A DNA stretch of 48,367 nucleotides from an uncultured Chthonomonas sp. (GTDB taxonomy: Bacteria; Armatimonadota; Chthonomonadetes; Chthonomonadales; CAJBBX01): contig CAJBBX010000040.1 in assembly GCA_903951425.1 (NCBI GenBank), forward strand, positions 1 to 48,367, given 5' to 3'. The position numbers were made by a program, and so were the translations under genes. The first letter of the stretch is position 1, and each line of letters begins with the position of its first letter. Below are positions 20,878-46,992 of the stretch, piece by piece. The notes under the pieces were generated by a model, which ran no database searches, had not been told where the DNA came from, and saw only the letters and a list, made by a program, of their open reading frames with translations.

Positions 20878-21879
20878 TTACTCCAGAGGCAGCGTGATGC
20901 GCTGCTTGCGCCGGGCCGACTCGAGGATGGCCAGCGTCAGCTCGATGTTGGCCATGCCCTCCTCGCCTGGGATCGTACAGGGCTTGTCCTCGGCGATGGC
21001 CTCCACCCACTCGCGGATCTCGCGGCGCAGGCCGTACTCGCGGTTGGCGGACACCTGCTCACCGGTCAGGTCCAGGGGCTCTCGACCGGTGTGGGAGCGG
21101 TAGGTGAAAGACGTGCCCCACTGGAACCGGACAGCGCCCTCGGTGCCACTGATCTCCACCTCGGCCCGCCCGATGGCGTTGTACATGCCCTCGTTCAGCG
21201 TGCAGACGGCGCCGCCCTCGAACTCCACCACGGCGGTTGTGCAGACGGACCAGAGCGGGCTGGCGGGATCGATGACGAAGTCCCAACCTGTCACGGCCAC
21301 CGGCTTCCCGAAGACGCAGCGCATGAAGTCGATCTCATGCACGGAGACCTCGAAGAGGTGGTGCCATACCTTCGCGGGGTCGTCACGCCAGGTGCCGTCC
21401 CAGTGAGGCTTGGGCGGACCATAGCGGAAGATGGTCCCGTACTTCAGTTGCCCGAGCTCACCCGCCTCAGCCATCTCGATGGCCTTTGCGAAGTCGGGGA
21501 TGTAGCGCAGGACCTGGCCGATCTGCAACTTCAGGCCGCGCGAGGCGCAGGCGTCGATCATGGCGCGGCAGTCGGCCATGGAGCCGGCCATGGGCTTCTC
21601 GCAGAAGACATGCTTGCCAGCGGCGGCGGCGGCCAGCGTGCACGGCAAATGACAATGGTTTGGCGGGGCGACGATGACCGCGTCGAACTCGCACTCGGCC
21701 AGGGCGCTCTCCCATTCGCACCACGCCGGCACCCCTAGATCCGCTACCAGCCGACCGCGGGCGCCTTCGTCCGGGTCGACCCCGCCCACCAGCCTGACGC
21801 CGGGGATAGAGTCCAGCTGCCCGACAAGGCCGCGGCCCATGCCGCCGCATCCCACCAGCACCACACGCAGGTCCGCCAT
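20878..21879 (-). CDS. Gfo/Idh/MocA family NAD(P)-dependent oxidoreductase
   Basis: Starting at the ATG with AAGGAG seven bases upstream, the product is 333 residues, typical of the family. The N-terminal Rossmann fold has GCGGMG at 10-15 and Asp35 (GGVDPD), an acidic residue at the end of strand two that favours NAD. EKPMAG at 94-99 is the conserved substrate-site motif. The C-terminal alpha/beta domain includes VSVHEIDFMRCVFG with the usual catalytic His. Members oxidise or epimerise sugars, inositols or amino sugars in the cytoplasm. It converges on the sugar ABC importer and may act on the imported sugar. A ceramidase-like gene lies 83 bases upstream on the same strand. Confidence 0.9.
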   Translation of the reverse strand: MADLRVVLVGCGGMGRGLVGQLDSIPGVRLVGGVDPDEGARGRLVADLGVPAWCEWESALAECEFDAVIVAPPNHCHLPCTLAAAAAGKHVFCEKPMAGSMADCRAMIDACASRGLKLQIGQVLRYIPDFAKAIEMAEAGELGQLKYGTIFRYGPPKPHWDGTWRDDPAKVWHHLFEVSVHEIDFMRCVFGKPVAVTGWDFVIDPASPLWSVCTTAVVEFEGGAVCTLNEGMYNAIGRAEVEISGTEGAVRFQWGTSFTYRSHTGREPLDLTGEQVSANREYGLRREIREWVEAIAEDKPCTIPGEEGMANIELTLAILESARRKQRITLPLE

Positions 21880-35461: not shown

Positions 35462-36964
35462 ATGGCAGCCATCGATCCCCGACACGTGATCCACCTGCAG
35501 AACGGACATTTCACGCCTCACACCCAGGCCCGCGCGGCGGATCTGGACACCTTGCTCGACACGTTCGACGCCGCCCGACCCCCGTCGGGCCTGGCGATCC
35601 ACATTCACGGCGGCCTGGTCTCCTTCTCGGCCGCCATGGAGATCGTGAAGGACCTGCAGCCCAAGTACACGGCTGCCGGCGCCTACCCCGTCTTCGTGGT
35701 CTGGGAGTCGGGTCCGTTCGAAACCCTGATGCACAACCTGCAGGATATCGGCAAGACCGACCTCTTCCGCGAGATGCTCCGCAAGCTGGCCGAATGGGCG
35801 CTGAAGAGCCTGGGAGACGCCGTGGGCCTTCGGGGCGGCGGCCCGGCGCCGGTAGACCCGCAGGCGGTGGCCGATGCGCTGGACGCCTGGCATGCCGACC
35901 CCGGCGCGGGCATGCCGTTTGTTGACCTTGAGCTCCGCCTGGCCGGCGCCGACGCTCGCTCCGCCGCCCTGGACCCGGATGCCATGCTCACGGAGATGGA
36001 GGCCGACCTGGAGACGGACTTCAGGATCACCGACGCCGTGCGCGGCATCCCTCCGGATGAGGCTGCCCGCCTGCGAGCTGCAGGCGTTGACCTCTTCGAG
36101 GAAGGCGGCCCGGGCGGGCGCGGGTTCGTCTCCACGGCCAAGGCCGCTGTGTTCCTGGCCAAGCTCACGGTGGCCGTCGGCAAGAGGCTACTCAACGGCC
36201 GCGGTCATGGATTCCTAGGCACCGTGATCGAGGAGCTCTACCGGTCGTTCGGACTGGCCCGCGTGGGCAAGGAGTGGCTCTGGGAGCAGATGAAGCGCGA
36301 TACCGAACAGGCCTGCGGCGATGACCAGAGGCCGGGCAACGAAGCCGGCATCACGGCCCTCCTGCTCCGGATGGGCGCCCGGTACCCGAACGCGGCCGAA
36401 GCGCCGCGGATCACCCTCATCGGCCACTCAACCGGGGCCGTCGCCATCTGCCACATCCTGGACGCCGCGGCTCGCCACGCCCCAGCCCTGACCTTCGACC
36501 TGGTGCTGCTGGCCCCGGCCTGCACCACGTCGCTCTTCGCGCGCGCCTACGACGCCCACAAGTCCCGCATCCGGGGCATGCGCATCTTCGGCATGCAAGA
36601 CCCCGTGGAGCGTGCTGACGCCATGGCCGAGCCCGTCATCGGTCCGGCGGGCCGCGCGCTCTACCCGCACTCGCTGCTCTACTGCGTCTCCGGCATCCTG
36701 GAACCGGAGGTCGATGCCCCGCTACTGGGCATGCAGCGGTTCCTGATCGCAGAGGAGACCTTCGACGCGGCCCACTTCCCCGACGTGGCGTGGGCTCGCC
36801 GAGAGATCGCCTCCACGGGAGCCATGGCTGCGGTCTGGTCGGAGCAGGTCGGGGTGCCAGGCTACGAGTCCATGTCCAGGCGCCATGGGGACTTCGATGA
36901 CGAAGTGGTGACCATCAGGAGCGTGGCCCACATCCTGGAACAGGGCATCGCCCCACGGCCATGA
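35462..36964 (+). CDS. Serine alpha/beta-hydrolase domain protein of the caspase operon
   Basis: This 500-residue protein looks like a large alpha/beta-hydrolase. HIHGG (47-51) fits an oxyanion-hole segment, GHSTG (321-325, Ser323) is the nucleophile elbow, and Asp380 (FGMQD) and His475 (RRHGDFD) are placed to finish a triad. A 200-residue insertion, largely helical and acidic (about 120-290), separates the first strands from the elbow and may be a lid or a partner-binding region. No signal peptide is visible, so it is likely cytoplasmic. GAGGAGG precedes the ATG by seven bases. The stop overlaps the caspase start as ATGA. Lipase, esterase or peptidase activity is possible; I do not recognise the exact family. 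Confidence 0.72.
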   Translation: MAAIDPRHVIHLQNGHFTPHTQARAADLDTLLDTFDAARPPSGLAIHIHGGLVSFSAAMEIVKDLQPKYTAAGAYPVFVVWESGPFETLMHNLQDIGKTDLFREMLRKLAEWALKSLGDAVGLRGGGPAPVDPQAVADALDAWHADPGAGMPFVDLELRLAGADARSAALDPDAMLTEMEADLETDFRITDAVRGIPPDEAARLRAAGVDLFEEGGPGGRGFVSTAKAAVFLAKLTVAVGKRLLNGRGHGFLGTVIEELYRSFGLARVGKEWLWEQMKRDTEQACGDDQRPGNEAGITALLLRMGARYPNAAEAPRITLIGHSTGAVAICHILDAAARHAPALTFDLVLLAPACTTSLFARAYDAHKSRIRGMRIFGMQDPVERADAMAEPVIGPAGRALYPHSLLYCVSGILEPEVDAPLLGMQRFLIAEETFDAAHFPDVAWARREIASTGAMAAVWSEQVGVPGYESMSRRHGDFDDEVVTIRSVAHILEQGIAPRP

Positions 36965-37992
36965 CCGACTACGCCATCGTGGTGGGAATCGACCTCTACC
37001 CCGGCATCTCGCCGCTGCAAGGGGCCCAACGCGACGCCGATGAGTTCGCAGCGTGGCTGGCCCTGCCGGAGGGCGGAGGGGTCGACCCGGACAACGTGGT
37101 GCGCCTCACCACCGGCTGCTTCCATCCTCCGCTACCGGCGCGGGCGTCGCAGGCGCGGCCAACGGCAGACCAGTTCCGCGACCAGTTCACCGAGATCGTC
37201 ACCGACGACACCGGACGCGTACGAACACCGGCGGGGCGGCGGCTGACCCTCTACTTCAGCGGCCACGGCTTCATGGGCAACACAACGGCCATCGAGCGCG
37301 CCGTCTACTCGGCCAATGCGACCACGCTGGCCCCCGACCATATCGCCGCTACCCGGTATGCCAACTGGGCCGTCCGAGCCGGCCTGTTCGACGAAATGGT
37401 GCTGATTTGCGACGCATGCGCCGACCTGTCGCTGACGACAAGCATCGCCGAACCAATACTGATGCCGCTCGTCAACGCGGCACGCGCGGCCCGAGTGCGG
37501 ACGTTCTACGCCTACGCCTCCCCCGCCGGCGCCAAGGCCCGCGAGAAGCCGCTGGGCGCCGACAAGCAAGTGCGCGGCATCTTCAGTTACCTGCTCCTCG
37601 AAGCATTGCGCCAGGCCCCCGGCGCCGACGACGGCTGCGTCATGGCCACGCACGTCCGCGACTACATCCACAACGCATGGCCCGACGCCGCCGGACCGGA
37701 CGTCTTGCCGCCGACCATCGCCGTGGAGCCTGCCCGCGACCTGTTGATGGCGCGCAGGCCGCCAACCATCAAGCAACCCGCCACCGCCGTGACCATCACT
37801 GCCGTCGGGGCGGGAGCGGCGGAGGTCGTCGTCCTGGGCGGCAACGGCAAGGAGTGCCTGACCGCGACCATGGCGGGCGGCAGGGCCGAGGTGCCGCTAC
37901 CCGCCGGGCTCTACAAGGCCATCGTGCAGGGCACAGGCCGCTCGATGCTCTTCCAGGCCATCGGGGAGGTGACCCGTGTCGATATCCCGTAG
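36961..37992 (+). CDS. Caspase-family (C14) peptidase with C-terminal beta-domain
   Basis: The 343-residue protein opens with AIVVGIDLYP, the usual first strand of bacterial caspases. It has His102 in YFSGHGF (99-104) and Cys153 in LICDACAD (148-155), the catalytic dyad. Later, YASPAGAKAREKPLG and GIFSYLLLEALR (206-217) match the substrate-loop and helix region of peptidase C14. Such enzymes usually cut after Arg, Lys or Asp, and bacterial members often act as regulated effectors or processing proteases. Residues about 276-343 form a separate small beta-domain with PAGLYK. The gene overlaps the hydrolase by four bases and the next gene by 17. No membrane segment or signal peptide is seen. Confidence 0.85.
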   Translation: MTDYAIVVGIDLYPGISPLQGAQRDADEFAAWLALPEGGGVDPDNVVRLTTGCFHPPLPARASQARPTADQFRDQFTEIVTDDTGRVRTPAGRRLTLYFSGHGFMGNTTAIERAVYSANATTLAPDHIAATRYANWAVRAGLFDEMVLICDACADLSLTTSIAEPILMPLVNAARAARVRTFYAYASPAGAKAREKPLGADKQVRGIFSYLLLEALRQAPGADDGCVMATHVRDYIHNAWPDAAGPDVLPPTIAVEPARDLLMARRPPTIKQPATAVTITAVGAGAAEVVVLGGNGKECLTATMAGGRAEVPLPAGLYKAIVQGTGRSMLFQAIGEVTRVDIP

Positions 37993-39256: not shown

Positions 39257-39277
39257 ACCGTGGAGGCGCACCGGCAT

Positions 39278-40414
39278 ATGGGCTCTGTGGGTGTGGTGGT
39301 TCTGGCGCTTGCCGCCCTTGCAGTCTCGGCGGCTGCGGCTGACGTTGGTCCATTCGCCTCGCAGGCGCTGTTCGCTGCGGGCGACGCGGGCCGCCACACG
39401 TACCGCATCCCGGCGCTCGCCGTAACGACGCGGGGGACGCTGCTGGCCTTCTGCGAGGGGCGGCGAGGGTCATCCTCCGATGCCGGCGATATCGACCTGG
39501 TGCTGCGCCGTTCTACGGACGGCGGACGGACATGGTCGGAGCTGCAGGTGGTCTGGTCCGATGGCGGCAACACCTGCGGCAACCCGTGCCCTGTGGTGGA
39601 CCGCAGCACAGGCGACATCTGGCTGCTCGCCACATGGAACCGCGGCGACGACCACGAGGCGCAGATCATCTACCAGACCAGCAGGGATACTCGGCGCGTC
39701 TTCGCCCTCATGAGCCGCGATGACGGGCGCACCTGGGGCGAGCCGCGCGAGATCACCCCCTCCGTGAAGCTGCCCGACTGGACCTGGTACGCCACAGGAC
39801 CCGGCGCGGGCATCCAGCTCGAACAGGGGCCGCACCGGGGGCGCCTCGTCATCCCCTGCGACCACATCGAAGCGAAGACCCAGCGCTACTACTCGCATGT
39901 CATCTTCTCAGATGACTATGGCCGCACCTGGCGGTTGGGTGGCACGACGCCTGCCGATAAGGTCAACGAGTGCGAAGTGGCGGAACTGGCCGACGGGGCG
40001 CTACTGCTCAACATGCGGAGTTATGACCCGGCCCGGAAGGCCCGCCAGAGCGCCGTCAGCCGCGACGGCGGCGCCACATGGACGGACCAGCGAGTCGTGC
40101 CGGAGTTGGTGGACCCGATCTGCCAGGCGAGCCTGAGGCGGCTCACATGGCCCGCGCGCGGAAAGCCGGGCGTGCTGCTCTTCTCTAACGCCGCGTCGAC
40201 CAAGCGGGAGCGGATGACAGTGCGCGCCAGCCTCGACGATGGGGCGACTTGGCCGGTGGCTCGGCTGATCAGCCCGCTGCCCGGCGCCTACTCCTGCCTT
40301 GCCGCCCTGCCCGACGGCCGGATCGGCCTGCTCTATGAGACCGGCGAGAAGGGCCCTTACGAACGGATCGTTCTCGCTGACTTCACGCTGGAGTGGCTGC
40401 GCTCGGAGCCGTAG
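39278..40414 (+). CDS. Exported sialidase (GH33-type, BNR repeats)
   Basis: Exo-sialidases release terminal sialic acids. The ATG at 39278 gives a 378-residue protein with a signal peptide (MGSVGVVVLALAALAVSAAA). An upstream GTG at 39260 overlaps the GGAGG. YRIP (42-45) carries the first Arg of the triad, and five Asp-boxes are present, such as STDGGRTW (79-86), SRDDGRTW, SDDYGRTW, SRDGGATW and SLDDGATW. NMRSYD and GLLYE near the end match the later Arg and the Tyr-Glu nucleophile region. The six-blade propeller is complete, without an added lectin domain. It begins 21 bases after the caspase operon and ends at a convergent hairpin. A closely related glycosidase specificity is possible. Confidence 0.88.
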   Translation: MGSVGVVVLALAALAVSAAAADVGPFASQALFAAGDAGRHTYRIPALAVTTRGTLLAFCEGRRGSSSDAGDIDLVLRRSTDGGRTWSELQVVWSDGGNTCGNPCPVVDRSTGDIWLLATWNRGDDHEAQIIYQTSRDTRRVFALMSRDDGRTWGEPREITPSVKLPDWTWYATGPGAGIQLEQGPHRGRLVIPCDHIEAKTQRYYSHVIFSDDYGRTWRLGGTTPADKVNECEVAELADGALLLNMRSYDPARKARQSAVSRDGGATWTDQRVVPELVDPICQASLRRLTWPARGKPGVLLFSNAASTKRERMTVRASLDDGATWPVARLISPLPGAYSCLAALPDGRIGLLYETGEKGPYERIVLADFTLEWLRSEP

Positions 40415-40476: not shown

Positions 40477-42426
40477 CTACTGAGGCTTGGGCGCCGGCGG
40501 CGCCACCGCGCCCTGCCAGCCGGACTTCATCTCGCGCACCTTCAAGCTCACGATGCGGGCCGTGCCGCCGGTAGCCGAGACGGCGACACCGGACGTGGTG
40601 GGCTTGGGCAAGAAGCAGCTGGTGACCGAAAGGCGGCCGGCGTTGCCGAAGACCTCCAGCGACGCGCGGTCCAGCAACACCCGAACCCGGATGCGGCCGT
40701 CGATGGCCTCCAGCGGATAGGACTTCTGCAGCACGGTCAGCGTCTTGTCGGCGGCCTTCCAGACGACGCTCTCGCCGGGGAAGCGGAGCGTGACCTCGGC
40801 GGCGTCACCCACCTCGATCTCTGCATCGATATCCAGTAGCGCCGAGCGGGTGGCGACGGTGACCTCCTGGCCAGGCTTCACGGGCTGCAGGCGAAAGTCC
40901 TGCCCCTTGCCGTAGAGCGATGCGATCTCCTTGACCGGATTGCGCCGAATGCGCAGGCCCTCGGCGGTGCGGTGGAGGGTCATCTCGCAGGGGAAGCTCA
41001 TCTGCTGGTTGAAGGGCATGCCCGGATAGGAGCCACCGTTCATCCAGGCGATCTGGATGCGACGGCCATCGTCGGAGGGGATGTCGCTGAACGTCTGGAC
41101 CGCATAGTAGTTCGTGCCGTGGTCGGCGATGTGCGGCCCGGACTCGGACGTGAACTTCGAGCCATCGAAGTCACCCACGAAGTAACGGCCATTGGCGGCG
41201 GTGAAGACCCACTTGGCGGCGCCGGGCTCTCCCTGGACGGGCATGGGGAAGAAGTCCGGGCACTCGCCGCAGCCCTCCATGGGCAGCTTCTGGATCTGCT
41301 TCCACTCCTTCAGGTCGGGCGATGAGAAGAGGGCGAAGTCGATCCCGTCCAGATAGAGGGCCATGATCCACTGCCGCGTGGGCTCGTGCCGCACCACCTT
41401 GGGGTCACGGTTGCCGCCGATGATGTGCTTCAGGACGGGGTTGCCGGCATACTTGGTCCAGGTGCGCCCCTTGTCGCAGCTATGGGCGATGCACTGGGTG
41501 AAGGGCTGCCCCTTGGACTCGGGCGAGGTGTCGCCGGCGGCGGTGTAGATGGCGACCAGGGGCTTCTCCTCGCCGCTGGCGAAGCCGCTGGAGTTGGGCC
41601 AGTCCACCACTGCGGAGCCGGAGAAGATGGTGCCCTTCTCATCGGGCTCGATGGCGTTGGCGATCTGCTGCCAGTGGACCATGTCCTTGCTGACGGCGTG
41701 GCCCCAGGTCATGTTGCCCCACTCGGTGGCATAGGGGTTGTGCTGGAAGAAGAGGTGGTACTCGCCCTTGTAGAACACCATGCCGTTCGGGTCGTTGGTC
41801 CAGCCCGTCGCAGGCGTGAAGTGGAACTGCGGCCGCAGGCTCTCCTTGTAGAGCGGCTCGCGCTTGCGGGCCACGGGACCGGCCGTCGACGGCGTCTCCG
41901 CCGGTTCGTCGCTGAGAGTGATCTCGTCCACGTTGATGTGCCCCCATCCTCCGGTGGCGTCGTCCACAATCTGGATGACCGCCGTCTTTCCCGCCAGTCT
42001 GCGCACGTCCCAGCAGAACCAGCCCAGCGCCTCGGTGCCGCCCGGCCGGTCGTTGGGCCCGGTGGCGGTGCGGACGACCTTGCCGCCGACGACCAGGTCC
42101 ACACGCAACCGCTCCGGGTCCATGCCGCCGCCGAGCAGGAAGTTGATGTACTTCCGGTCCACCTTGAGCGACGGCGAGGTGAGCGTGCCCTTGGCTCCGT
42201 CCTGCTTGATGTAGCCGTTCACGAGCCCATGGCCGCGGAAACCGGAAACGAGCATCTGGCCGGGAAACGTGCCCTGTGCGGGCCCGGGCCCGAACGCCTC
42301 GCCGGCGACGGTCCAGGCTCCGTAGTCCTTGCCCTAGAAGCCCTCGAACAGGATGTCGGGCCGCTGCGGACCAGTCGGTGCGGCGGATCCGAGGACCAGC
42401 GAAACGGCGATTAGCGCGAGGCTCAT
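40477..42426 (-). pseudogene. GH32 fructan hydrolase (levanase/inulinase-like) broken by an in-frame TAG
   Basis: The full frame from the ATG at 42426 (AAGGAG seven bases upstream) encodes a signal peptide, MSLALIAVSLVLGSAA, then PDILFEGF. A TAG stop follows at 42334-42336. Reading continues in the same frame with GKDYGAWTVAGEAFG, the conserved start of the N-terminal lectin-like domain of this GH32 group, where an acidic residue is expected. GAG to TAG would be a single change. The GH32 domain is intact: WTNDPNG with the Asp nucleophile, RDPK, and ECPDFF with the acid/base Glu. A remnant starting at the ATG of MLVSGF (42255) would encode 592 residues without export signal. Either a true nonsense mutation or a sequencing error explains it. 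Confidence 0.88.
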
Positions 42427-42597
42427 GGGCGGGCTCCTTGCATGGGTATCCGGGCAGATGGCGGCCCCGGAGGCTACCCCGCTGGGTTTGGTTGAGTATA
42501 CCGGTGGGCATGGCTGGAGGCCGATAGTGACACCACCCGGGCCGTTGCATCGTCCCATGTACGGGCCGCTCCGTACGCCGGCTCGCGGAGGAGTGAC

Positions 42598-44046
42598 ATG
42601 GGACTGACGACGCCATTGCGGCCGGGCCCGGCCGGGCGCCTGGCTGCGGCGCTGCTGCTGGCGGGGGCGGCGCTCTGGTTCTGGCCGCGCACTTCCATTG
42701 AGTGGCTCGACGGCACTCCCAAACCCGAGCGGATCGACGGCGACCAGGCCGTCTCGGCTCACATGGACGGCATGACGGCTCGACTGGTCGCCCGCCCGGT
42801 AGCCGGCGGACCCGAGACCGAGATCGCCCACCAGAAGGGCGCCATGCTGATCGACTGGCACGCCCACGCGGGGCGAGTGAGCTACCTGCTCCTTCGAATA
42901 CCTCAGGCGACGGCTCGGCGAGATGCCGGAGGCATGCTGGCCGGTCCCGAGGTCGATCCCAGCCAAGGCGGGCCCGCGCCGCTGCTGCCGCGGCAGGTCG
43001 CCACAGGCGCGACGGCCCGGGTGACGCTGCCCGCGGGGATGCAACCGGCGGGCGCTGCAGGGGTCGCCTCGCCGCCGGCTACGACGTACCTGGGCGTGTT
43101 TGCAGCGCCTGCAGCAAGTGCCGGCCTGAAGGGCGTCCGTAGAACACCCAGCATCGACGGCTTCCAGTCGGGCGGCTCTACGCTCGACCTCTACACCGTG
43201 GACCGGCCAGGAGCCCATCCGCGCAGGCTCGAGTCGGGCGTCTATGGGGCTCGGGTCATGGTCGGCGATGGACTCTACTGGATCGACCCGAGGCCGGATC
43301 GCGAGGCGCGCGCCGTCCGTGGGAAGCAGGCCTGGTCTGAGGTCGCCGGCAGCAGCCGCGTCGTCCGCACGTCGCTGATCGATGGCTCCACGCGCACGGT
43401 GCGGACAGGCGTGCCATACGACACCAGGCTGATGCCGCTGGCCGAAGGGGTCTGCTGGACCGAGATGAGGCCCTACCCGGACAGCCACATCGACCTGCGG
43501 CTGTGGCGTCCCAACGGCTCGGTCGGCGTCCTGCGCGGCTACGGTGGCGGCGTCCGTCCGCCGGTGCAGGCAGGTGACAGGCTCTGCTGGTTCGTTTCGC
43601 GAACCCAGCCGCCCTTCAACGACCTCGCGGGCCATCAGTGGAGCCCCGATGACCTGCACAGCGCGCGATTGGACGGCTCCGACGAGCTTCTAGAGCGCGT
43701 CACCGCACGGCGCCCCGGCAGGCCCGTGCCGTGGGGACCATCGACGGACAGGTACCTGCATGCCGACGGCGGCGCGCTCTTCTGCCTCATGCGCGACAGG
43801 CCCGCCATAGAGCCGCCGCCGGAGGAGCCCACACTGCGGCTGTGCCGCCTTGATCCGGGCACGCCCGAGCGATGGCTGGAGGTGGCCGCCCTGCCGCCGC
43901 GCACCTCCGACCTGGCATTCCAGGGCCACTACCTCTATGGGGTCCATGCTGCGGAGACCGCCGGCCTGCTATCCGGCTTCACCGGCAGCGTCTCGGGACC
44001 GCAGTTCCGGAACCGGGCGTTTCGCGTCCGGCTCGCCTCTCCGTAG
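42598..44046 (+). CDS. Membrane-anchored propeller-like protein of unknown function
   Basis: This 482-residue protein has one N-terminal membrane segment (about 12-29, followed by WFWPR), probably with the rest outside the membrane. The mature part is beta-rich with repeated short motifs such as GDGLYWIDP, EGVCWTEM, GDRLCWFVS, GGALFCLM and GHYLYGV. These are spaced about 60-70 residues apart and fit six or seven propeller blades. An Ala/Gly/Pro-rich insert lies near 100-160. I do not recognise a catalytic motif. GGAGGAG precedes the ATG. It diverges from the GH32 gene (171-bp gap) and precedes the GH-A hydrolase by 58 bases. A carbohydrate-binding or sensing role is possible but not shown. 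Confidence 0.65.
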   Translation: MGLTTPLRPGPAGRLAAALLLAGAALWFWPRTSIEWLDGTPKPERIDGDQAVSAHMDGMTARLVARPVAGGPETEIAHQKGAMLIDWHAHAGRVSYLLLRIPQATARRDAGGMLAGPEVDPSQGGPAPLLPRQVATGATARVTLPAGMQPAGAAGVASPPATTYLGVFAAPAASAGLKGVRRTPSIDGFQSGGSTLDLYTVDRPGAHPRRLESGVYGARVMVGDGLYWIDPRPDREARAVRGKQAWSEVAGSSRVVRTSLIDGSTRTVRTGVPYDTRLMPLAEGVCWTEMRPYPDSHIDLRLWRPNGSVGVLRGYGGGVRPPVQAGDRLCWFVSRTQPPFNDLAGHQWSPDDLHSARLDGSDELLERVTARRPGRPVPWGPSTDRYLHADGGALFCLMRDRPAIEPPPEEPTLRLCRLDPGTPERWLEVAALPPRTSDLAFQGHYLYGVHAAETAGLLSGFTGSVSGPQFRNRAFRVRLASP

Positions 44047-44104
44047 CGACGCGCGCAGGCCGGGGTAGAGTACAGGTGGATCGGCACGCCGCCGGAGGAC
44101 CGAC

Positions 44105-46972
44105 ATGACTTCCCTACCCCGCACCACATTCCGCACATGCAGGTGCGCCGCCGGGCTGGCCATAGCGATTCTGGTCGTCGAGACAGCCTGGGCAAAGCCC
44201 GCCAAGCCGCCAGCCGACACGCCCGCAGCCCTGCAGCCCTTCACGCTGGAGCTGCTCGATGTCGGGCGCGGACGGTGGCGCTTCATCGACGCCTTCGGGC
44301 AGAACCTGGAGATGCCCGGTGCGCTGACGGCCTGGGCATACCCAGCGGGAAGCGGCCCCCTGACGGTGAGAGCCCTCTACTGCGATCCCGAGAAGCCCGA
44401 GGATGCCAGCAGCGGCGAGTGGCGGCGAGCCCGGCAGGAGCCCTTGACCGGAGGCGGCGCAGTTCACCGGATCGATGAACCGTGGTTCAAGACTTCGATC
44501 CGCCTGGAGCCGGTACCGGGCGGCGCCGTACGATGCACGCTGAGCGACGTGCTCCTCGGTCCCGCCACCGCGGGGGACCGGTACGTTTCGCGACTCAGCG
44601 TGCGGCGGGATGGGCGGGATGCACCGCTCTGGCTGGCCGCTCCCGGAGGCGAGACCATCCGCGTGATGGCCGACCGCGTGGGCGGCGTCTTCGGCGAGGC
44701 CGAGGCGATGCGTGTGCGCCTGGTCTCCCCGGCCCCCCTTGCCGTGGCACAACGTCTCTACGTGGAAGTGCGCGACATGGCCATCAACCGCATCGCATGG
44801 AAGGGCGCAGTGCGGCTGAGACCGGGCTCGCCCGCCATGACCGCTCTGGTCCTCCCGGTGGCGCGGTGCGGTGTCTTCGAGGTGGTGGTCCGCGATGTCG
44901 CCGGCGGCGAGGTAGGACGAGGGCGCGTCTGCCGCGTCGCCACACCTCGCGCAGTGAAGCCGGATGCGTCGACCATCGGCATCAACCTGTTCCAGCAGCA
45001 GGTCTGGTGGTACGCGCATCAGGCGCCCCTGCTGGCCAAGGCAGGCGTCCACTGGATTCGCCCGTGGCTGGCGTGGGAGAACACCTGGTCGTTCCAGCAG
45101 CCCACGGCGGACGTCTGGGAGATGCGCCCACTGGACGCCTCGTTGCGCCGCATGGATCGGTTCAGCATGCGCTACCAGAGCATCCTCTTCGGTGCGCCCA
45201 GTTGGCTCACCGGCTCCAGGGACTGGACGGCCCCGCCGCCGGAGAAGTTGGCGCAGTGGGAGGCCTACGTGACGCGCCTCGTCACGCGGTTCAGGGGCCG
45301 CATCCCCGCCTACGAGATGTGGAACGAGCCCGACCTGATGTGGCAGGAAGCCACGCGCCACTCGGGCGAACACTACCTCAGCCTACTCCAGACGGGCTAC
45401 CGAGCCGCCAAGAAGGCCGATCCGAAGTGCCTCGTGCTGGGCCTCTCCCACGCCGGGTACGAGGAGTGGCTGGAGCGCGTGGGCAAGCTGGGCGCGGCGC
45501 CGCACTTCGATATCGCCACGCTGCATACCTATGCGGAGCCCGACGCCTTCCTCGAGCAGGTGGAGCGGCGCAAGGCGATCCTGCGGCGCACGGGGATGCG
45601 CGCCAAGCCGATCTGGTTCAACGAGTTCGGTACCACAGCGAACGACTTCTCGGCGGACTACTCGAAGGAGTACCGATGCTCGGAGCGACGCCAAGCCGAG
45701 GTACTGGTGGCCAACTACGCCCAAGCGCTATCGGTGGGCAAGGGCGCCAAGGCGTTCTGGTTCTGCTCGCTGGACCCGCGCGACCCGGCGCACAGGGATC
45801 AGTGGACGGGGGACGCGGGCATCGGCCTGCTCTATCTGGGCCTACTGCCCAAGTTGGCCTACGCCGCGCTGGCCGGCGTGGCGCAGCAGTTGGACGCACG
45901 CCGATGCGTCGGCGCCGCAGAGCAGCTACCGGGCGTCCGCATGGTGGCGTTCGACGGACCCGTGAGCGTGGTCTGGGCGGAGGCGCGATCCGGCCTCACG
46001 CGCCTTCCGGCCGTGCGGCTAGGCTGCGCGCCCCGAGAGCGCATCGTGGTTCGCGACCTGCTGGCGAACCGCATCGCCGCCGGGCCCGCCGACGGCGTGA
46101 CGCTCGACTTCGCGCAGGGCCCGCTCTACATCACGGGCAGCAGGCAACTGGGCGCAGCGGTGCACGCCGGGTCCGCCGCAACTCCGCTGGAGCCGTCGGT
46201 CACGCTGGCGCCAGGTCAGGCGCGTACGGTCCGGCTAACGGCAGGTCGGGGCGCCACGTTCGCCGCGACAACGCCTGCAGGCTCGGGCATCACGGCACGG
46301 GCTAGGAAGGCTGGGGTCGGCTGGGGCGTGGCGCTTCAGGCCGCGCCGGGCACGCCGCGGGCCTTTGCCCGTGTCCGTGTGACAACACGCTTCCCACTGG
46401 GCGCTTTCGGTCTACTGAAGCCGCTCGCCGTGACGCGCTGGATCGTGGTGACCGTCGGCGCGCCGAACCTGGTGCGCGACGGCGGCTTTGACCGAGGTTC
46501 GGTGGCGGAGTGGACACCCGAGAGGACCAGCGCCTTTGCCCATGACCGAGGCGAGGGCAAGCAGGCAGAGGGCTCCCTGCGGCTAGACGGTCCCTTCGAC
46601 CGCCGGCTCGTCCACTGGAATGTGGAGCTCAAGCCGGGGCGGCCGGTGCGGCTACGGTGCTGGCTGAAGACCCGCAACCTGAACGACGCCGCCGTCACGC
46701 TGAGCGTGGCGCTCTTCGGCGGGAAGGGGTGGATCGGATCCCACTGCCTGGCGTCCACCACTCCGGACCGCGATATAGATCCCAACTGGCGCGTGGTGGC
46801 CGGATGCGCGCGAATTCCACTGGGCACGAACGAGTGGACGCTACTTACCTCCACGCTCCCGGCCGACTCGATCACGCAGGGGGTGAGCAAGGCGGCGCTC
46901 TTCATCGATGCGGCGGGCGGCGGTGGGAGCCTCTGGATCGATGATGTCGACCTCTGGCAGGAGAACCAGTAG
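44105..46972 (+). CDS. Exported clan GH-A glycoside hydrolase with C-terminal carbohydrate-binding domain
   Basis: The 955-residue protein has a signal peptide (1-30, TAWA-K). A beta-rich N-terminal region (about 45-285) is followed by a TIM barrel (about 290-620). AYEMWNEPD (402-410) holds the acid/base Glu408 and WFNEFG (504-509) the nucleophile Glu507, in the spacing of clan GH-A enzymes (GH39, GH5, GH30 types). Residues about 640-790 form beta-sandwich domains. Residues about 795-955 resemble a CBM4/9-type binding domain (NLVRDGGFD...W). Substrate cannot be read from sequence; beta-xylosidase- or beta-glucosidase-like activity is plausible. GGAGG precedes the ATG by six bases. The gene ends at a convergent hairpin. 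Confidence 0.85.
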   Translation: MTSLPRTTFRTCRCAAGLAIAILVVETAWAKPAKPPADTPAALQPFTLELLDVGRGRWRFIDAFGQNLEMPGALTAWAYPAGSGPLTVRALYCDPEKPEDASSGEWRRARQEPLTGGGAVHRIDEPWFKTSIRLEPVPGGAVRCTLSDVLLGPATAGDRYVSRLSVRRDGRDAPLWLAAPGGETIRVMADRVGGVFGEAEAMRVRLVSPAPLAVAQRLYVEVRDMAINRIAWKGAVRLRPGSPAMTALVLPVARCGVFEVVVRDVAGGEVGRGRVCRVATPRAVKPDASTIGINLFQQQVWWYAHQAPLLAKAGVHWIRPWLAWENTWSFQQPTADVWEMRPLDASLRRMDRFSMRYQSILFGAPSWLTGSRDWTAPPPEKLAQWEAYVTRLVTRFRGRIPAYEMWNEPDLMWQEATRHSGEHYLSLLQTGYRAAKKADPKCLVLGLSHAGYEEWLERVGKLGAAPHFDIATLHTYAEPDAFLEQVERRKAILRRTGMRAKPIWFNEFGTTANDFSADYSKEYRCSERRQAEVLVANYAQALSVGKGAKAFWFCSLDPRDPAHRDQWTGDAGIGLLYLGLLPKLAYAALAGVAQQLDARRCVGAAEQLPGVRMVAFDGPVSVVWAEARSGLTRLPAVRLGCAPRERIVVRDLLANRIAAGPADGVTLDFAQGPLYITGSRQLGAAVHAGSAATPLEPSVTLAPGQARTVRLTAGRGATFAATTPAGSGITARARKAGVGWGVALQAAPGTPRAFARVRVTTRFPLGAFGLLKPLAVTRWIVVTVGAPNLVRDGGFDRGSVAEWTPERTSAFAHDRGEGKQAEGSLRLDGPFDRRLVHWNVELKPGRPVRLRCWLKTRNLNDAAVTLSVALFGGKGWIGSHCLASTTPDRDIDPNWRVVAGCARIPLGTNEWTLLTSTLPADSITQGVSKAALFIDAAGGGGSLWIDDVDLWQENQ

Positions 46973-46992
46973 CGGAGAGGCCCGGACGCCGG

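Follow-up and report, generated by a model that had tools for sequence, protein, structure and literature searches.

Introduction

In-frame stop codons are widespread in bacterial genes, where their persistence does not exceed the scale of population polymorphism, and genes of carbohydrate metabolism are a frequent class among those affected (Belinky et al. 2021, PMC7918605). Enzymes of the GH32 family belong to this metabolism. Their catalytic residues lie in three short motifs, with the nucleophile in NDPNG, the transition-state stabiliser in RDP and the acid/base in an EC motif, and all three are present in the gene described here. A search of the literature on the clade of this organism returned nothing specific.

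Here, we describe a GH32 gene of an uncultured Chthonomonas sp. (Armatimonadota) that is interrupted by an in-frame TAG shortly after its signal peptide. The gene lies in a stretch of 48,367 nucleotides (contig CAJBBX010000040.1), in the following called the window, to which all positions refer if not stated otherwise. The frame, its relatives, the use of TAG in the genome and the selection acting on the gene were analyzed, and the possible explanations of the stop were weighed against each other.

Materials and methods

For the congeneric comparison, two other genomes of the genus (G001 and G002) were used, neither of the same species. For the wider comparison, 50 homologues from Armatimonadota, Planctomycetota, Verrucomicrobiota and other groups were aligned. 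The 46 tRNA hits of the genome were typed by ARAGORN (44) or by eye (2). To find stops having coding sequence in the same frame on both sides, a coding-potential scan was carried out, covering 839 kb of the genome.

Results

The interrupted frame

Codon 31 of the 649-codon GH32 gene is TAG, read on the minus strand at 42336..42334, exactly where the preliminary description, which named no strand, had placed it, and the frame is otherwise intact (Table 1). Upstream of the premature stop, it begins with ATG at 42426 followed by MSLALIAVSLVLGSAAPTGPQRPDILFEGF, passes through a hydrophobic leader and reaches ...DILFEGF directly before the TAG (codons 1-30). Downstream, it resumes with GKDYGAW... 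and reads GKDYGAWTVAGEAFG, giving 618 open codons up to the terminal TAG at 40479-40477. The good ribosome site that had been noted before the signal peptide was found as AAGGAG at 42439-42434 with a gap of 7 nt to the ATG. The interrupted frame is not a product of chance, because both sides align without gaps and with 93% identity to two intact congeneric orthologues that have GAG at this codon; the earlier claim of one continuous GH32 protein across the stop is thereby borne out.

Table 1. Features of the interrupted GH32 gene, with positions in the window
Feature	Position	Strand	Remarks
GH32 gene	40477..42426	minus	650 codons including terminal TAG; one interruption at codon 31
Ribosome-binding site AAGGAG	42434..42439	minus	7 nt before ATG; kept in both congeneric orthologues
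Start codon and hydrophobic signal-peptide region	42367..42426	minus	Codons 1-20; judged by eye
N-terminal beta-sandwich (jelly-roll-like) module	41893..42366	minus	Codons 21-178; no Pfam family
Premature TAG	42334..42336	minus	Codon 31; both congeneric orthologues have GAG
First in-frame ATG 3′ of the stop	42253..42255	minus	Codon 58; no Shine-Dalgarno sequence upstream
GH32 N-terminal catalytic domain (PF00251)	40963..41823	minus	Codons 202-488; Pfam
GH32 C-terminal beta-sandwich (PF08244)	40534..40851	minus	Codons 526-631; Pfam

The GH32 gene is divergent from the gene at 42598-44046 and convergent with that at 39260-40414; it is therefore probably transcribed alone, so that polar effects of the stop are not expected. 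Elsewhere in the window, 36961-37992 (plus strand) encodes a caspase-like Peptidase_C14 protein (27 bits; cut-off 21.4), and the start of this gene overlaps the end of the one before it (35462-36964), for which Pfam gave no match.

The encoded enzyme

Both GH32 domains, the PF00251 propeller and the PF08244 sandwich, score above their curated cut-offs in the window protein (232.4 versus 22.1 bits and 48.5 versus 21.9 bits, respectively). The catalytic residues D212 (NDPNG), D341 (RDP) and E388 (ECP) are intact in the frame and invariant across 25 sequences. Judged from its sequence, the product is a putative secreted exo-inulinase/levanase-type GH32 enzyme, with a substrate preference predicted from sequence similarity to exo-inulinases. 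At least six further GH32 loci are present in the same genome.

Codons 21-178 are predicted with high confidence (pLDDT 95.5) to form a separate beta-sandwich module, whose first part includes a nearly invariant segment and which gave distant matches to CBM35-like and MAM-like folds. Its motif FExxxYxxWxxxGxAFG...GGWGHINVD is conserved across Armatimonadota, Planctomycetota and Verrucomicrobiota. The module also occurs at the loci L003 and L007 and many others, and in the same genome it is present in open frames that are much longer (about 1000-1460 codons); it is a candidate for a new carbohydrate-binding-type module.

Codon 31 in related genes

Each of the two congeneric genomes carries a gap-free orthologue of 1950 bp with GAG at codon 31, so the stop is absent from the orthologues. 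Among the 50 aligned homologues, a few of which are the same genome duplicated across two collections so that the independent count is slightly lower, the codon-31 column holds E in 45, D in 3 and N in 1, the remaining one being the stop of the window gene. An acidic codon had been expected at this place, and E or D is indeed found in 48 of the 50; likewise, the suggestion that one base change explains the stop agrees with the GAG of both orthologues. The premature TAG thus reads as a private G-to-T nonsense change, GAG to TAG on the coding strand.

No other homologue locus examined has a stop in the gene body, and the proposed comparison with related genomes therefore gave GAG in G001 and G002 and the stop in no relative. 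Apparent stops inside related genes were traced to the ends of genes or to sequence preceding the start; for the GH32 paralogue on contig C128, the apparent internal TGA is its normal end, which the alignment had overrun.

TAG as a genuine stop codon

In the window, more genes end in TAG than in any other stop codon (16 of 27), and in the 839-kb sample TAG ends 199 of 445 long genes. RF1 is present in the genome, which together with the window count upholds the earlier statement that TAG is a normal stop here. A suppressor tRNA, for which a search had been recommended, was looked for as a CUA anticodon and found in none of the 46 tRNA hits of this draft genome. PylS is absent (26 bits versus a cut-off of 178 bits). 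Selenocysteine was rejected as well, the sole tRNA-Sec match over the cut-off being a tRNA-Ser(CGA) already typed.

The scan returned 17 same-frame stop candidates, with 42334 as the only clear interruption; on visual inspection, the other 16 resemble the end of one gene followed by a neighbouring gene in the same frame, which speaks against genome-wide recoding of TAG.

The two tRNAs typed by eye are a tRNA-Ala(GGC) at a contig edge and a damaged sequence resembling tRNA-Val(CAC). The latter (L165; G000:C119, about 20933-21020, minus strand; 32 bits) was not called by ARAGORN and may be a remnant that an integrated element left behind.

Selection and age of the stop

Compared with G001, the GH32 gene has a dN/dS of 0.15, and its neighbours range from 0.04 to 0.37. 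This genome has 33 synonymous and 14 non-synonymous private codon changes, the TAG being counted among the latter, versus 31 and 14 for the sister branch (G001); the estimated omega is about 0.13 versus 0.14. The share of this branch that can have been free of constraint is about 10% at most (95% bound). The gene shows neither relaxed selection nor an indel after the stop. The comparison of omega and the absence of indels exclude an established pseudogene and are compatible with a very recent one. Since the gene is not decaying, the stop should be very recent, polymorphic or a consensus error.

The highest dN/dS values versus G001 within the syntenic block, 0.37 and 0.27, belong to two adjacent genes at 42598-46972 (plus strand; 482 and 955 aa) without Pfam match; synteny with G001 ends near 46973.

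Discussion

Explanations of the stop

We infer that the organism really carries the TAG base and makes little or no enzyme from this gene. The likeliest explanation, which we consider probable, is a recent strain-level null, or a population polymorphism, caused by a single nonsense change in one of several GH32 genes. A G-to-T transversion would have turned the conserved Glu codon GAG into TAG, RF1 would terminate translation at codon 31 with release of a 30-residue signal-peptide fragment, and no secreted enzyme would be made, leaving the gene null or nearly so. The mutation would be very young or still polymorphic, the rest of the gene not yet decaying, and the remaining GH32 genes may make the loss tolerable. 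Ranked second, as a lesser but still substantial possibility, is a sequencing or assembly error in the consensus of this metagenome-assembled genome, the true codon being GAG and the gene intact. G-to-T (C-to-A) is a common damage-type error, and the change is a single one of this type (C-to-A on the plus strand) in a 188-contig draft. The undiminished purifying selection in the rest of the gene and its full lack of decay fit an error as well, as does the fact that no other clear interruption occurs in 839 kb. However, no raised error rate is seen: the sister genome has just as many private non-synonymous changes, and the other window genes matched in the G001 piece align unbroken and without a stop.

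The preliminary description had left a null, low-level readthrough and an assembly error side by side; the very recent null (or polymorphism) and the consensus error stand, while the search for a special readthrough device yielded no suppressor tRNA, no structure and no shared stop. Functional readthrough, by which the same frame would supply enzyme at a low, regulated level, would agree with the purifying selection maintained 3′ of the stop and with a published analysis that found in-frame stops in bacterial genes whose dN/dS is below 1 and argues that many of these stops are read through (PMC7918605). It is nevertheless very improbable: the stop is conserved in no relative, decoding by a CUA tRNA or PylS finds no basis in the draft genome, RF1 is present, and the RNA downstream of the stop folds no better than shuffled sequences (z = +0.98). 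Similarly improbable is an early stop acting as an expression dimmer: a small share of the ribosomes in this strain would misread the TAG and produce low levels of the secreted enzyme, and selection would keep the allele as a reversible switch within the population. Ordinary background readthrough of the TAG is conceivable. A restart of translation at ATG 42255, producing a shortened cytoplasmic GH32 enzyme, could make use of 592 open codons after this in-frame ATG, but no Shine-Dalgarno sequence precedes it, and both the signal peptide and the first part of the N-terminal module with its nearly invariant segment would be missing from the product; we regard such a restart as highly unlikely. 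Least probable of all, to the point of being negligible, is that the organism has recoded TAG by a code change, a suppressor tRNA or pyrrolysine, which only the in-frame TAG itself would suggest and against which stand its role as a major stop, the presence of RF1, the PylS score far below the cut-off and the tRNA set.

The recent null, which we prefer, is an event of an already known kind and biologically ordinary, with little significance beyond annotation. If real, it would be one case in which a secreted enzyme of fructan degradation has been lost at the level of the strain, the lineage having several GH32 genes. In annotation, a gene caller may place the start at 42255 and thereby omit the signal peptide, so that the enzyme would wrongly look cytoplasmic.

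Comparison with known systems

Among solved structures, the best match is an exo-inulinase (PDB 8i12; E 8.9e-77, residues 195-630). This protein and the fungal exo-inulinases 3rwk and 1y4w have the NDPNG, RDP and ECP motifs in common with the window enzyme, which differs from all three by its additional N-terminal beta-sandwich module and by the interruption of its gene at codon 31. With regard to the stop, Belinky et al. (2021, PMC7918605) retained stops common to at least two species as a safeguard against artefacts, whereas the stop of the window is found in a single genome. In other respects the locus resembles the cases described by these authors: a single substitution has put TAG where a sense codon stood, selection downstream of it is still purifying, the gene belongs to carbohydrate metabolism, and the persistence of the stop would be on the scale of population polymorphism only.
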